38,164 nucleotides of DNA. Origin: Verrucomicrobiota bacterium. GTDB taxonomy: Bacteria; Verrucomicrobiota; Verrucomicrobiia; Chthoniobacterales; UBA10450. Positions 21,625 through 27,182 of the stretch are shown here, piece by piece. The notes under the pieces were generated by a model that was not told where the DNA came from, made no database searches, and saw nothing but the letters and a program-made list of their open reading frames with translations. The stretch covers positions 1 through 38,164 of the forward strand of contig QHQA01000028.1 of the NCBI GenBank assembly GCA_003219695.1. The letters run 5' to 3'. Every line of letters begins with the position of its first letter. Positions within the stretch are counted from its first letter, which is position 1. A program made the translations under genes and the position numbers.

Positions 21625-21804
21625 CTATTTCTCTTTGTCTTCAGTTGTAGTTGTGTCAGTCGAACCGAAGAATTGCTGGCCGGCTTTTACATCCTTTTTC
21701 GGGATCAAGTCATCCAAGCGAATCAACTTCTGCTTCTTGCGCTTGGACTTTTGACTTTCGGGCTCTCCGGCAGACGTGTTTTTTTTGTCCTTCGGCGTGC
21801 TCAC
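21625..21804 (-). CDS. Lys-rich 59-residue peptide, candidate substrate of the C39 ABC transporter
   Basis: From GTG 21804 to TAG 21625-21627; no ATG lies in frame upstream before the TAA near 21870. The N-terminal third is Lys/Arg/Ser-rich, followed by RLDDLIPKKDVKAG (residues 29-42) and a 17-residue polar tail QQFFGSTDTTTTEDKEK. A hydrophobic stretch ending in a small-residue pair (here Ala41-Gly42) is what C39 peptidases cut in double-glycine leader peptides; short proteins with D-L-x-P-x-K-D-x-K-G-G are known to me beside such transporters. It lies downstream of the activator and transporter genes on the same strand. A sigma-54-like site precedes it. No strong ribosome-binding site. Function as a secreted peptide is inferred. 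Confidence 0.6.
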   Translation of the reverse strand: MSTPKDKKNTSAGEPESQKSKRKKQKLIRLDDLIPKKDVKAGQQFFGSTDTTTTEDKEK

Positions 21805-21819
21805 GTTGACCGTTCTGTT

Positions 21820-21835
21820 ATCAGTATGCGTGCCA
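21820..21835 (-). promoter_or_regulatory. Possible sigma-54-type promoter before the small peptide gene
   Basis: On the minus strand TGGCACG-N4-CTGAT (21835-21820) matches the -24 element fully, but the -12 element has GA instead of the required GC. It lies only ~16 bases before the GTG, leaving almost no leader. Suggestive because a sigma-54 activator is encoded just upstream, but weak. Confidence 0.2.
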
Positions 21836-21981
21836 ATGTTCGGAAATGCTGAGGAGCAGCAACGTCGACCGATCGTTTGTCGTTAAGCGGCAAGGGTTTT
21901 CGCAGCACCTCGCCCCCATAAATTCTAACTCCATTGTGAAACCGGCAAAGTGCTTTGGTTTCATTTTGAGCCATGGTCGGC

Positions 21982-23007
21982 TCATTTTTCGGACTGTTTG
22001 GTCTCAGATTTGGGCAGGCTTTTTAGATACCGGGCAAGCGTGGAGCGCGAGATGCCAAGTAATTTCGCCGCGCGCCGCTGGTTGTGATTTGCCTGGGCGT
22101 ACACAGAGCGAACGTGTCTTTGAATGGCGCCGTCCAGCGACAGGTCAGTATCGCGATCCCGTTCTTCGCCGTTGTCGACGAGCGTCGAGGCCGCTTTGGG
22201 CACTGCCGCAGAATCGCGATCATTTTGGAGGTCGGGCGAGAAGATCACATGTTCCGGCAAAACCACCGAGCCGTTGCAAAACAGCGTCATTGTCCGCACA
22301 GTGTGGCTCAGTTCGCGCAGGTTCCCGCGCCACTGGTGACGCAGCAATCTGTCCATCGCTTCGGGATGAATTGAAGTGATCTTTTTGCCCTCACTTAATC
22401 CGGCAGCTTTCAGTTCTGCGGCGATCAGCGCCGGCAATTCCTCCAGGCGTTCGCGGAGTGGAGGAATGAGCAACGTAAGGCCATTTAATCGGTGATAAAG
22501 GTCTTCGCGAAATTTTGCCAATCGTACTCGTTCACGCAGCGAGCAGTTCGATGCGCAGATGATCCTTGCATTGGTCTTGAGCATTCTTTCCGAACCGAGC
22601 CGCTCAAATTCTCCGTATTCGAGCACACGCAGGATTTTTACCTGGGCGAGCGGACTCATTTCGGAAATTTCGTCCAGGAAAATCGTTCCCCCATGAGCGA
22701 GTTCGAATTTTCCCTTGAGACTTTGCTGCGCACCAGTGAACGCGCCGCGCTCGTGACCGAACAACTGGCTCTCAAGCAACGTGTCGCTAATTGCTGAAGC
22801 ATTGAATGCGATGAATGGCCGGCGAGCTCGCGCGGATGAATTGTGGATGGCGTGGGCAAGCAAAGTTTTGCCGGTGCCGGTTTCGCCAAGAAGTACGACC
22901 GGCACGTCTGATTTAGCGGCCAGCGCAGCAAGTTGCAGGCAACGCGCCATGGCTGGATTGCTCGTCGTCAGGTCTTCGAGTTTGAGCTTGGAAGGCGCTT
23001 CCTTCAT
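21982..23007 (-). CDS. Sigma-54-dependent AAA+ transcription activator without receiver domain
   Basis: A 341-residue protein from ATG 23007. It begins almost directly with the AAA+ domain: Walker A GETGTGKT (41-48), the sigma-54-contacting loop GAFTGA (88-93, intact), Walker B GTIFLDE (107-113), and the arginine-finger region FREDLYHRLN. The end is a Fis-type helix-turn-helix (NHNQRRAAKLLGISRSTLAR). There is no N-terminal response-regulator, GAF or PAS domain, so activity would be set by oligomerisation, partner proteins or expression. It starts 17 bp after the transporter stop on the same strand, so it is probably in the same transcript, and it may control the export locus through RpoN. Confidence 0.92.
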   Translation of the reverse strand: MKEAPSKLKLEDLTTSNPAMARCLQLAALAAKSDVPVVLLGETGTGKTLLAHAIHNSSARARRPFIAFNASAISDTLLESQLFGHERGAFTGAQQSLKGKFELAHGGTIFLDEISEMSPLAQVKILRVLEYGEFERLGSERMLKTNARIICASNCSLRERVRLAKFREDLYHRLNGLTLLIPPLRERLEELPALIAAELKAAGLSEGKKITSIHPEAMDRLLRHQWRGNLRELSHTVRTMTLFCNGSVVLPEHVIFSPDLQNDRDSAAVPKAASTLVDNGEERDRDTDLSLDGAIQRHVRSVYAQANHNQRRAAKLLGISRSTLARYLKSLPKSETKQSEK

Positions 23008-23024
23008 GCGTGCGCGAACCGTGT

Positions 23025-26000
23025 TTAGATTCCCAGCTGCTGACTGTAAAGGTAATAGTACAAACCGCGGACGGCCATTAGCTCATCATGTGTGCCAATC
23101 TCGGCGATGCTCCCTTTCTCCAGGACCACAATGCGATGGGCTTCACGGATCGTGCTCAAGCGATGTGCAATCACAATCGTTGTGCGGCCAGCCATTAGCC
23201 GCGCAAGGTTCTCCTGAATCGCGCGTTCGGATTCAGTATCAAGCGAGCTGGTCGCCTCGTCAAAAATCAAAACCGGCGGGTTGTTGTAGATTGCCCGGGC
23301 AATTGCGATGCGCTGTTTTTGCCCGCCTGAGAGAGATAACCCTGATTCACCGATCTTTGTCTCGTATCCCAGTGGGAGGCGGCTGATGAAGTCGTGCGCT
23401 GCTGCCGCCTCGGCTGACGAAAGTACACGGTCAAGGTCTGGCTCCGGATCGCCGAACGCGATATTGCGCGCAATCGTGTCGTTAAACATGTGGTTCTCCT
23501 GAAGAACAATTCCGACCTGCCGGCGGAGATCGCGATAATTTATGGTCTTTGAATCGACATGATCGAAATGAACGCTGCCTTCAGTAGGCTCTAGCAGGCC
23601 GGCAATCAATTTTATCAACGTGGTTTTGCCGGAGCCGCTGCGGCCCACGAGTGCAACCATGCGCCCGGGCACGAGATCCAGCGTAATATTTTTCAAAATG
23701 TCAGGGGATTCGGGCCCGCCATATTTGAAACTGACGCCGCGAAGCTCGATTCGACCTTCGAGACTGTGAACGGGGACTAGTCGGGAGCGATCATGACCTT
23801 GCTCGGGCTCCTGTTCGAAAATGTCGTTAAGCCGGTTCAGCAGGACAGCCGCTTGTTGCGTCTTCTCCCAAACACGAAGCACGCGCAGAATTGCCGCGTA
23901 TCCCATCGCGGTCAGAGAACTGAACGCAACAAAGCCGCCCAGGCTCAGGTGTCCTTTGATCACTTGCGTGGCGCCAACCCATAGAAAAATCGAAGTCGAG
24001 AGCAGCCCGATTGTCTGCAGGACGCGCTCCCAGGACATGACGATGAAGGTCACGTTGAAAAGTTTTTGTGAGAGCGACACAAATTCGTTCAGCATGGCGT
24101 CGCGAAAGGTGCTTTCGGCCGATGCGGCTTTAATCGCTTCAATACCTTTGATCGCGTCAATTTGCTGTGAACTGTACTTGCCCTGGCTTTCCTCTGCGCT
24201 GTGATAGAGCGGGCGGAGGATCTTCACCGAAAAAATCATCAGCCCCGCATATAGTGGCGTTGTGGCCAAAAACGCCAGCGTCAGTACCGAGCTATACATC
24301 GCCATCAAAACCAGTGCGCCGATGAGAAACAACAAAGCTAGCAAGGCACCGATTCCCTGTAGCACGAACTGTCGAAGCTGTCTGGCGCCTTCCAGCCGAC
24401 GCTGGATATCGCCTGTGCGGCGACTCGTAAAATAGGTCATCGGCAAAGCAAGAAGCTTCCGGCTCACGAAATCGAGAGCCACCGCATCGAAACGCACGGC
24501 TCCAAACGCCAGCAAATACTCCTGCGCGAAAGCGGAGAGTTGCACAAACACGATCGCGGCGAGCATGCCGAACAGGATCGTTTTCAGCAGACTGAGATCA
24601 TTCTCGACAATGACTTTGTCGACAACGACTTGGGTGAATATCGGAAAGAGGAGTTGAAGGAAACTGACCGCAATCGCCAAGCCGAGCACTTGAAAAAGAA
24701 TGCCTTTGAAGCGCGACAGAAATGGAACTACCCACGCCAGGCTTGGCTTGCTCTCCGGGGCTTGCTCGAACGCCGGGGTGTAATCGAATAGCGCCGCGTA
24801 GCCAGTCCATTTTGCTTCGAATTCGCGGCGGGGAAGTTTTCGCAATCCGCGCGCGGGATCAGCGACGCGTACGAACTGCTCATCGACATCGTACAGCACG
24901 ATCCAGTGATTGCCCTCCCAATGAACGATCGCTGGAAGCGGCATGAGCGGGAGATTGCGACCCGAGACTTTCAAAGCGCGAGCAGCCAGCCCCAGTTCTG
25001 TCGCAGCGTGAGACATCGCCTTGAGACTGGTGCCGTCAATTGCCGTGTGACAAAGCTGTCGAATCCGTGCCAGATTCACTTTGCGTCCGAAATGCCGGCA
25101 GATCATCCCGAGACACGCTGCGCCGCAGTCCATCTCGTCGATTTGCAGGATCTCATCGATTTTGCGTATCCGCTTACCGCGCTTGCGAAACAAACCGCGC
25201 TCGTCGGTGAATGGGTCTGCCCGTTCAGTGTCCCTGGGGGGCTGCCGATCATCCAACTCGACTTTGTCGTGCACCTGCGTCTCCGCGGGCAGCAACTCCG
25301 TCGTGAAATCAAGCGGGACCCGCGCTTCCGTTTTTGCCTGGTATAGCGCAAGGCGCTCGCTCAGAAGCTTGTCAAATTCGGGAAATTGTCGCCGCAACTC
25401 GCGGACGCCCGTGGCGCCCAGCGACAGAAGTTCGCAGTCGGTGAAAGCTTGTACTGACGCGGCTCGCGGCGAGCCGTTCAAGATCGATAATTCACCAAAA
25501 AAATCGCCTTCGCGGTAAAAGGCCAGATTTCGTTCCTTTCCATCCATTCCAGTGAAGGCGCGGGCTCTGCCCTTTTGCACAACGTAAAGAGGCCCGGCGT
25601 CGTCACCTTCGCGAATAATGAGGCTGTCCTTTGCAAACGCGGCGGGTTTCAATGTCTCGATCACGCTGCGCAACACGGGTGTCGGCAGTCGGCCGAAATT
25701 ACTGAATTGATAAAGGAAACTTTGGAGCGCGCGATTTCGACCGGTGGTGTCGACAAAGCGTTTTAGCTCCGGTTCCTGGCGTGCCAGCTCGAGAAAATCA
25801 TCGCGATCTATTCGCAAGACGTCGACTGCGGTGCTACAGCGTACTGTCGCCCGTCGAGTTCCACCCTCGGATAATGCAGCTTCCCCGAAGCAGTCGCCAG
25901 GCTTTAACACGCCCAGCGGGATTTCTTCGCCGTCGGGCTTAATTTTGATGGCGCGGGCACGTCCCCGGCTTACTACGTAAAAAGAGTCGGCGGGATGGCC

Positions 26001-26132
26001 TTGCGTGACGATTACATCGCCGAATTCGTAGTGTTCTTGCGCAAGCAGAGGCTCGATCGCCGCGAAGTGTTCATCGGAAATAAAGCGGAACACCGATGAG
26101 CGCCGGAGAATTTCGCTGTCCTGTGCTTTCAT
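23025..26132 (-). CDS. Peptidase-containing ABC exporter with two cyclic-nucleotide-binding domains
   Basis: A 1035-residue fused exporter. In order: cNMP-binding domain 1 (about 15-130; FGEAALSEGGTRRATV at 82-97), domain 2 (about 145-265; FFGELSILNGSPRAASV), a linker, a C39 peptidase domain (about 325-450) with catalytic Cys336 (QIDEMDCGAACL), His409 (GNHW) and Asp425 (VADPARG), a six-helix membrane domain (about 465-755), and the ATPase with Walker A GRSGSGKT (830-837), LSGGQ (934-938) and Walker B VLIFDEA (954-960). All catalytic residues are present. Such proteins remove the leader of a small peptide and export it. The start overlaps the extended reading of the foldase gene by ATGA. No membrane-fusion or outer-membrane partner is encoded nearby. 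Confidence 0.93.
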   Translation of the reverse strand: MKAQDSEILRRSSVFRFISDEHFAAIEPLLAQEHYEFGDVIVTQGHPADSFYVVSRGRARAIKIKPDGEEIPLGVLKPGDCFGEAALSEGGTRRATVRCSTAVDVLRIDRDDFLELARQEPELKRFVDTTGRNRALQSFLYQFSNFGRLPTPVLRSVIETLKPAAFAKDSLIIREGDDAGPLYVVQKGRARAFTGMDGKERNLAFYREGDFFGELSILNGSPRAASVQAFTDCELLSLGATGVRELRRQFPEFDKLLSERLALYQAKTEARVPLDFTTELLPAETQVHDKVELDDRQPPRDTERADPFTDERGLFRKRGKRIRKIDEILQIDEMDCGAACLGMICRHFGRKVNLARIRQLCHTAIDGTSLKAMSHAATELGLAARALKVSGRNLPLMPLPAIVHWEGNHWIVLYDVDEQFVRVADPARGLRKLPRREFEAKWTGYAALFDYTPAFEQAPESKPSLAWVVPFLSRFKGILFQVLGLAIAVSFLQLLFPIFTQVVVDKVIVENDLSLLKTILFGMLAAIVFVQLSAFAQEYLLAFGAVRFDAVALDFVSRKLLALPMTYFTSRRTGDIQRRLEGARQLRQFVLQGIGALLALLFLIGALVLMAMYSSVLTLAFLATTPLYAGLMIFSVKILRPLYHSAEESQGKYSSQQIDAIKGIEAIKAASAESTFRDAMLNEFVSLSQKLFNVTFIVMSWERVLQTIGLLSTSIFLWVGATQVIKGHLSLGGFVAFSSLTAMGYAAILRVLRVWEKTQQAAVLLNRLNDIFEQEPEQGHDRSRLVPVHSLEGRIELRGVSFKYGGPESPDILKNITLDLVPGRMVALVGRSGSGKTTLIKLIAGLLEPTEGSVHFDHVDSKTINYRDLRRQVGIVLQENHMFNDTIARNIAFGDPEPDLDRVLSSAEAAAAHDFISRLPLGYETKIGESGLSLSGGQKQRIAIARAIYNNPPVLIFDEATSSLDTESERAIQENLARLMAGRTTIVIAHRLSTIREAHRIVVLEKGSIAEIGTHDELMAVRGLYYYLYSQQLGI

Positions 26133-26240
26133 TCTGTCGAAATTGGCGCGCTGCCAAGCCGCCGCTGCGTGTATTTGCTCATAAGCTCGGAGAAATGCCG
26201 GTCGAGCAGTCGCTGATCGATTCGCGATTGAACGCTCGGG

Positions 26241-27182
26241 TCATCTACATCCGCCGCCGCGGGCGATCGGTTCGAGCACGTCCCCGGCCGAAGTGCTTAG
26301 GAATCTCTGCTGTGTGTCCGGGGGAAGGTCTTCTAGAAGAAAGTCTGAACGTCGAAAAGGGTAACGCCCATCGGCAGCGACTTCCTCCATTGACATCCCA
26401 TCCTCCCGCACACAAAACAGCGCTTCCCTGGCGGCATCGTGCGATTCCAACTCGATCACTTCGGTCTCAAATCGCGTCAGCGGCAATCGCAAAGCCGTCA
26501 ATTCATGTTGACGCGCCTCAGGGACAAGCAGCCTGTCGCAGTGGGCCCGGTATGCTGCCTCGATCGCAAGCATGTCATCCAACCACTTCGAATCGCGTCC
26601 CAATTTCTCCAGCCAATCCGCCCGTTGTGCCGATTTAATCCTGTTCCGATGCAAAAATCTGTGCTCTTCGGCCGCAATTGCCTCTGGGGCCGGTTCTTTT
26701 CCTGCGCAGCGTGCGGCGAGACGCGCCATTAAATCGCTTGTCATTCGATCCAAATCTCCGGATAAAATCAATTCCGTCAGGAACGACCGGCGCAGGTCGG
26801 ACGACGCGCACTGATATTCCACTTCATCTGGAAGGAGGTTTTCGCGAATCGCGGTGACAAAATATTGACGCGTAAAATAGTCGCTGAAGTCATCGAAAGT
26901 CAGACCCCGATTTGCCAACCATGCTTCCGTTTCCTCGGCAGTGATTAAATCGTATTCGTACCGAAATGCCTCCGCCGCACTGGAAATTGCGGACTCGTCC
27001 AAATCCAAGCCTAGTTCATCGGCGCGTTTTTCAGCTTCGATTTCATCAAGAAATTCTTTCCATTTTACTCGCAGTTCGCCTCTTAAAATGGCTGCGTCGA
27101 TTGCATCGCGCGCCGTATATTCCTGTTCTCCGCACGCGCACACCACAAGGTCAAAACCTGAAATTGACTCACTGCTCGCCAT
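26241..27182 (-). CDS. Parvulin/SurA-like peptidyl-prolyl isomerase or foldase (C-terminus frameshifted)
   Basis: A 313-residue reading from ATG 27182. The first two thirds are helical and acidic, like a SurA N-terminal chaperone domain (e.g. TAEETEAWLANRGLTFDDFS). Near the end FLLEDLPPDTQQRFLSTSAG followed by DVLEPIARG is the closing part of a parvulin (PpiC-type) domain. As read it stops at 26241 with GGGCR. In the shifted frame it continues as DDPSVQSRIDQRLLDRHFSE and ends at TGA overlapping the transporter ATG (ATGA), so a one-base error or mutation in the GCC-repeat at 26251-26263 is likely and the real end is about 26129. There is no signal peptide. PPIase-like proteins often accompany peptide exporters. 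Confidence 0.65.
   Translation of the reverse strand: MASSESISGFDLVVCACGEQEYTARDAIDAAILRGELRVKWKEFLDEIEAEKRADELGLDLDESAISSAAEAFRYEYDLITAEETEAWLANRGLTFDDFSDYFTRQYFVTAIRENLLPDEVEYQCASSDLRRSFLTELILSGDLDRMTSDLMARLAARCAGKEPAPEAIAAEEHRFLHRNRIKSAQRADWLEKLGRDSKWLDDMLAIEAAYRAHCDRLLVPEARQHELTALRLPLTRFETEVIELESHDAAREALFCVREDGMSMEEVAADGRYPFRRSDFLLEDLPPDTQQRFLSTSAGDVLEPIARGGGCR

Follow-up and report, generated by a model that had tools for sequence, protein, structure and literature searches.

We analysed a 38,164-nt stretch of DNA (hereafter the window) from the soil organism Verrucomicrobiota bacterium GCA_003219695.1 (contig QHQA01000028.1; lineage Verrucomicrobiia; Chthoniobacterales; UBA10450). Four packed genes lie between positions 21625 and 27182, each of them where the original prediction had placed it. 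The SurA/PrsA-like foldase or partner protein (26241..27182) is followed by a 1035-aa peptidase-containing (C39) ABC exporter (23025..26132), a sigma-54 activator (21982..23007) and a 59-aa peptide precursor, here called PEP1 (21625..21804), all on the minus strand. Three parts of the window locus are damaged or altered: an HlyD gene, the tail of the foldase and the double glycine of the peptide leader, which reads Ala-Gly.

Pfam, alignment and structural modelling together define the exporter as a C39 transporter with two N-terminal cNMP-binding domains, and the predicted domain composition was recovered in full as two cNMP stretches, Peptidase_C39, an ABC membrane domain and an ABC ATPase. 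The C39 domain (residues 328-450; 24783..25151, minus strand; Pfam and alignment) retains Q330, C336 and H409 in 74/74 aligned exporters and D425 in 73/74, and the catalytic Cys-His-Asp, membrane domain and ATPase are those of a peptidase-containing ABC transporter (PCAT). N-terminal to C39, where HetC-like cNMP-PCATs carry one cNMP domain, the window protein has two: the first spans residues 33-119 (25776..26036, minus strand; Pfam) and the second about residues 162-249 (25386..25649, minus strand; model and Pfam). The Glu and Arg of the phosphate-binding cassette are E84 and R93 in the first domain (65/74 and 67/74 aligned exporters) and E214 and R223 in the second (72/74 each), and these residues are absent in two of 80 loci (L182, L183). 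In a model of exporter residues 1-470 (pLDDT 73, pTM 0.46), the tandem cNMP region finds its best Foldseek matches in the cAMP-binding tandem domains of PKA regulatory subunits (E 4.9e-22), and the best matches include cAMP/cGMP-binding tandem domains of both PKA and PKG. The best NCBIfam match of the exporter is the TIGR01846 HlyB model at 534 bits, short of the 725.55 cut-off, and the TIGR03796 model of NHLP bacteriocin exporters gives 522.2 bits, below its cut-off of 853.3.

The predicted gating of export by a nucleotide finds support in the anatomy of the domains, in their conserved Glu/Arg pairs and the modelled PKA-like tandem fold. The tandem domains could instead sense ppGpp or serve only in structural dimerisation, a reading that we regard as possible and somewhat doubtful: the single cNMP domain of HetC is reported, in the available text, to bind ppGpp with a Kd of 59 uM (PMC10986499), whereas the conservation of the phosphate-binding Glu and Arg in both domains of most of the 74 exporters and the Foldseek matches to the cAMP/cGMP-binding tandem domains of PKA and PKG speak against it.

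The foldase assignment holds on the model of an intact relative (L118), which combines a SurA-like chaperone with a parvulin-like domain as in SurA/PrsA-type proteins (pLDDT 94, pTM 0.87; Foldseek matches 2pv3 at E 1.3e-6 and parvulin 3gpk at TMt 0.62). The window copy lacks the last strand and helix, its C-terminus being cut by a deletion of 38 bp that are present in four compared relatives, and its frame stops at 26241. Because these 38 bp are missing, the extended foldase frame that had been predicted to meet the exporter lies in another frame. We therefore rejected an overlap of the two genes, since the overlapping stretch (26129..26240, minus strand; …SVQSRIDQRLLDRHFSEL…), which runs into the exporter start as ATGA, is a remnant of the ancestral tail behind the out-of-frame deletion. 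An assembly error may lie behind the deletion. Pfam gave no match for the window foldase; against TIGR04500 of NCBIfam this protein scores 35 bits (44.9 for the intact relative), below the cut-off of 180, and by sequence it is related to that family without being a member. Of 80 exporter loci, 76 also carry a relative of the foldase, and these relatives occur, like those of the exporter, in Verrucomicrobia, Acidobacteria, Gemmatimonadetes and other phyla. No signal peptide was evident by eye on the foldase, and a cytoplasmic role of this SurA-like partner is therefore likely.

The PEP1 gene has a GTG start and encodes the predicted 59 residues, with a leader (residues 1-42; LIRLDDLIPKKDVKAG) that ends in DVKAG at the Ala-Gly site and a 17-residue core, QQFFGSTDTTTTEDKEK. 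A search with the single sequence detected PEP1 at E 0.01 or better in 48 of the family's 83 genomes. With a 22-row profile, 48 of the order's 213 genomes gave a match, namely 47 members of the family (47/83) and G159, which belongs to another family. PEP1 matched none of the Pfam and NCBIfam models. PEP1 is a real gene, its protein being conserved beyond chance in these 47 family genomes. In the alignment the leader reads KLIRLDDLIPKx(D/N)VxGG and is followed by the core (H/R)QLLFGATDT. All 22 rows keep the last Gly of the leader, and the residue before it is Gly in most relatives, Ala in the window and Asp in locus L048. The leader ends in GG in 40 of 46 parsed PEP1 ORFs, some of the AG counts being parsing artefacts, so that the double-glycine leader of a PCAT substrate is seen in the PEP1 and PEP2 relatives (PEP2 being the second peptide class described below), with AG in the window copy. 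PEP1 cores are hydrophilic (mean GRAVY -1.11) and contain no Cys. Beyond the phylum, peptides that resemble PEP1, with (L/F)FG or a similar motif in the core, lie downstream in one acidobacterial locus (L158), two gemmatimonad loci (L174 and L190) and one hydrogenedentote locus (L172).

Conservation of the peptide beside homologous exporters, on which the original prediction had staked itself, was borne out. At E 1e-100 or better, 46 of the 83 family genomes have an exporter match, and 43 of these 46 also hold PEP1; three genomes have the exporter only, five PEP1 only and 32 neither, in a set whose members are not independent lineages, whose associations carry no correction for shared ancestry, whose exceptions include several incomplete assemblies and in which short peptides can escape first-look searches. 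In loci of sufficient length PEP1 mostly follows directly after the activator. We scored 44 named loci in which the sequence continues for 4 kb or more past the exporter: activator and PEP1 occur together in 24 and are both missing in 15, three loci have the activator alone and two have PEP1 alone.

The activator comprises an AAA+ domain (Sigma54_activat) with the letters GAFTGA, an AAA lid and a Fis-type HTH, and no sensor domain was found in it, as originally described. The window's genome has one RpoN gene. Sigma-54 promoters have the consensus GG at -24 and GC at -12 with ten bases between. A -24/-12-like element, TTGGCACGCATACTGATAA (21818..21836, minus strand), lies about 31 nt before the peptide start, and the form TTGGCACGNATNCTGNTAA recurs ~30 nt upstream of PEP1 in 39 of 42 distinct upstream regions, several of its columns being fixed by the search pattern and the control being the 0 matches in 8155 upstream bases. 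Two of the three regions without it belong to second copies that lack the activator (L042, L046). The element keeps the GG and the spacing of sigma-54 promoters with the C at -12 replaced by A, G or T in 39/39, and a canonical GC at -12 is found in the more distant L156. In its own genome the pattern occurs once (0 when read backwards) against about 0.8 expected by a hand estimate, so only its conservation counts.

In relatives the cassette typically runs foldase, tandem-cNMP C39 exporter, HlyD, sigma-54 activator and peptide. Seventeen of 20 fetched regions hold both exporter and activator, and in 16 of these 17 an HlyD-family gene of ~395 aa lies between the two; across all loci with room for it, HlyD is present in 61 of 66, the five exceptions being four loci from Actinobacteria and L118 (sister genome). 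In G016, G048, G064 and G067 the exporters that lack HlyD end at contig edges, and a complete exporter without HlyD occurs only in G000 and G055. The gap between exporter and activator in the window is 17 nt long, a scar (23008..23024, minus strand) that is identical in the sister genome G055 and occupies the place of a ~1.2-kb HlyD gene in relatives. No HlyD was found elsewhere in the window's genome or in G055. HlyD is absent from the window because of a lineage-specific deletion common to its nearest relative, and we therefore rejected the idea that the locus, lacking HlyD, is of an unusual kind by origin. The predicted lack of a nearby HlyD is accordingly true of the window's lineage and not of the cassette in general. 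The HlyD beside the exporter that marks tripartite type I secretion is missing from the window and its own genome, TolC-type genes are present elsewhere in that genome, and the missing outer-membrane route of the original prediction is in part explained by the loss.

These losses bear on the possibility that the window copy is a dying remnant without function, which we hold to be a real though lesser chance. HlyD is deleted, the foldase is frameshifted, GG has become AG, no PEP2 gene was found beside PEP1, and in two related genomes (G071, G076) activator and PEP1 have decayed. The exporter and activator frames are intact, however, with dN/dS between the window and G055, which shares the HlyD deletion, of 0.100 and 0.114 (0.126 for the foldase up to its deletion). 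The promoter-like element is also intact, DG in place of GG occurs in L048, and the last Gly is invariant in all 22 rows. If the loss was shared, the exporter has, on these sequence comparisons, been under purifying selection after HlyD was lost, and its low dN/dS indicates that it stayed useful without HlyD or borrows an adaptor.

A scan of named genomes returned 91 exporter relatives, of which 80 were kept; by record title they come from Verrucomicrobia, Acidobacteria, Gemmatimonadetes, Hydrogenedentota, Planctomycetota, Lysobacterales and Actinobacteria, most of the genomes being fragmented MAGs with their own labels and some titles (Klebsiella, Akkermansia) looking wrong. A phylum-wide draw of 387 genomes gave 9 exporter matches at E 1e-130, three of them in the window's family. 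The genes that flank the cassette differ between genera, and those that are shared look like housekeeping genes.

Alongside PEP1 we identified a variable second class of peptides, PEP2, with leaders like IKVRDLKPKKDAKGG and very diverse cores that are often Gly/Thr/Ser-rich and repeated. Among 84 distinct PEP2 ORFs, 82 have the GG leader end, 26 have repeats and five contain Cys, and the cores have a mean GRAVY of -0.81. The leaders of both classes share (I/V)x(V/L)xDLxPxxD(A/V)xGG; this pattern is distinct from the ComA consensus, L-12/E-8/L-7, given in the part of the source available (PMC6363468). PEP2 profile matches occur in 50 of the 83 genomes, some of them being the PEP1 leader itself. 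In relatives PEP2 genes occur beside PEP1 as well as far away from it. Many are remote from the cassette, and the window's genome has one such gene, on contig C26; the profile matches in that genome are C26 and PEP1 itself, and no PEP2 gene was found beside PEP1 in the window. PEP1 had been called the only candidate substrate in reach, which is right for the window and wrong for the genome, where C26 carries a second-class Gly-Gly peptide. A different small substrate beside homologous exporters, named at the outset as an argument against PEP1, was in part what we found, in that many loci add other Gly-Gly peptides and Opitutaceae-type loci have only those. The -24/-12-like element precedes 6 of 35 distant PEP2 genes where 0.34 would be expected (binomial 1e-6); two related contigs account for three of the six matches, another match (L144) probably belongs to a main locus, and 29 of the 35 genes lack the element. 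Its presence before PEP1 and some distant PEP2 genes suggests a regulon at the level of sequence.

According to the available text of PMC6363468, bacteriocins classically have double-glycine leaders and C39 exporters, and the hypervariable PEP2 cores, several per genome, would suit a bacteriocin or microcin cassette in which PEP1 and PEP2 are antibacterial and immunity is encoded elsewhere or intrinsic. We consider this unlikely, since the cassette has no conserved immunity-like gene and its flanks vary by genus, the PEP1 core is conserved rather than diversifying, and the cores are hydrophilic, with Cys absent in PEP1 and confined to 5/84 PEP2. More improbable still is a modified-peptide, graspetide-like pathway, raised by the role of TIGR04500 proteins, MirC among them, as partners of an ATP-grasp ligase: the foldase weakly matches TIGR04500, the cores contain much Thr, Asp, Glu and Lys, and MirC and MirB are reported to be needed to modify MirA from a cluster with a C39-type exporter (PMC13097080, available text), but the TIGR04187 synthetase was found below cut-off in 2/83 genomes, both without the exporter, and not in the window's own genome, no modifying-enzyme gene is among those common to the fetched regions, and with no TIGR04187 ligase in any exporter-bearing family genome (the genome-wide search being for this ligase family) we rejected the pathway as a likely one.

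The nearest described exporter is HetC of Nostoc/Anabaena, by its description rather than by sequence, and it is the only link of a nucleotide-binding domain to a C39 exporter described in the literature that we searched. According to the available text of PMC10986499, HetC is needed for a developmental peptide signal, its cNMP domain binds ppGpp and is required in vivo, this domain precedes C39, transmembrane and ATPase domains, and no membrane-fusion gene is nearby, as in the window. By the same account HetC differs in having one cNMP domain described, against two PKA-like domains here, and an exported substrate that is not established, against a predicted cognate peptide family; unlike HetC, the present cassette also holds a SurA-like partner, a sigma-54 activator and, in relatives, HlyD. 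PteB of Synechococcus elongatus resembles the exporter as a C39 protein that releases several small GG-motif proteins (EbfG) acting in biofilm formation; the leader is different, and the part of the source available mentions neither a cNMP domain nor a SurA-like partner (PMC4997328). The rosaritide cluster MirA-D likewise places a TIGR04500 SurA-like partner beside a C39-type exporter, yet MirC acts for an ATP-grasp ligase and has, as reported in the available text, no PPIase-domain similarity (PMC13097080), whereas a parvulin-like domain is modelled here and no synthetase was found. TIGR04500 is listed beside ATP-grasp loci in what is available of PMC8939145. Type I secretion and class II microcin systems (HlyB, CvaB type) share the exporter with HlyD in diderm relatives and TIGR01846 as best match; they differ from the window protein in its score below the TIGR01846 cut-off, its tandem cNMP front end and the absence of HlyD. 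Searches of the open-access literature for the motif, TIGR04500, cNMP-C39 exporters and such systems in these phyla found no description of such a cassette.

The core idea of a peptide-export locus is supported, and we think it probable that the window holds a derived version of a cassette dedicated to processing and exporting double-glycine peptides, one conserved and possibly signalling and others variable, under second-messenger gating. The partner protein would keep the precursor unfolded and pass it to the exporter in the cytoplasm, a cyclic nucleotide (cAMP or cGMP, alternatively ppGpp) on the tandem sensor would switch export, C39 would cut after GG (AG in the window), and, in lineages that have HlyD, this adaptor and a TolC-type channel would let the peptide out. 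PEP1 and some PEP2 genes would be driven by the sigma-54 activator that lacks a sensor. HlyD is gone and the exporter is still selected, so that in the window's lineage export may end in the periplasm, as proposed for HetC, or borrow another adaptor. From its sequence, with an (L/F)FG core motif that recurs in other phyla, PEP1 is most likely the signal-like member and PEP2 the variable effectors.

How Verrucomicrobia and other dominant soil phyla secrete peptides or signal with them is a nearly blank field, and the cassette predicts dozens of small secreted peptides to which none of the Pfam and NCBIfam models that we tried gives a name. Because its loci combine a defined exporter, substrate family, leader and promoter-like element, purified parts would allow a direct test of whether a second messenger gates the export of peptides. 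More tentatively, the cassette may represent an undescribed form of cyclic-nucleotide-gated peptide communication in bacteria of several phyla, mostly uncultured and from soil and freshwater, with one conserved (L/F)FG signal under a sensorless activator, a hypervariable Gly-Gly regulon with a new type of leader, a cytoplasmic SurA-like delivery chaperone and, at the front of the exporter, a bacterial counterpart of the PKA regulatory subunit, from which the window's lineage would have turned HetC-like without HlyD.

The conserved double-glycine precursor gene PEP1 and the exporter cassette each occur in a second copy in some genomes. Second PEP1 copies are present in genomes G062 and G056 (loci L078 and L079), where no activator lies near them and the -24/-12-like element upstream of PEP1 is absent, and the single genome bin G049 holds two complete exporter cassettes (contigs C82 and C136). 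PEP1 is nearly identical between G055, the window's sister genome, and G063 (L064 8517-8705 versus L074 5783-5971; dS 0.023) although the exporters of these genomes are widely diverged (dS 0.99), suggesting either that the peptide gene was exchanged recently or that the assembly is mixed. In G071 and G076 (L072, L124 and L126), only fragments of the activator remain and the start of PEP1 is damaged while the foldase, HlyD and exporter appear intact, an independent erosion of the regulator-peptide half of the cassette.

The single genome G080 contains 15 matches to the profile of the variable second-class Gly-Gly peptides, a profile that also matches some PEP1 leaders, on contigs C100, C118, C160, C161, C206, C221, C228, C229 and C250. 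A third recognisable group of Gly-Gly peptides, distant from the cassette and conserved at the N-terminus, follows the pattern NINVVRSxWRR…IRDLxPxKDVKGGGG…SKPTTG…GTTGSH and includes a member in the window's own genome (L229 5027-5218, contig C26), with further members at L230-L232, L234, L248 and other loci.

Actinobacterial exporters of the tandem-cNMP C39 type (L186, L188, L189, L191 and L193) are accompanied by a foldase relative, and HlyD is absent from those of these loci long enough to show it, as expected for cells with a single membrane.
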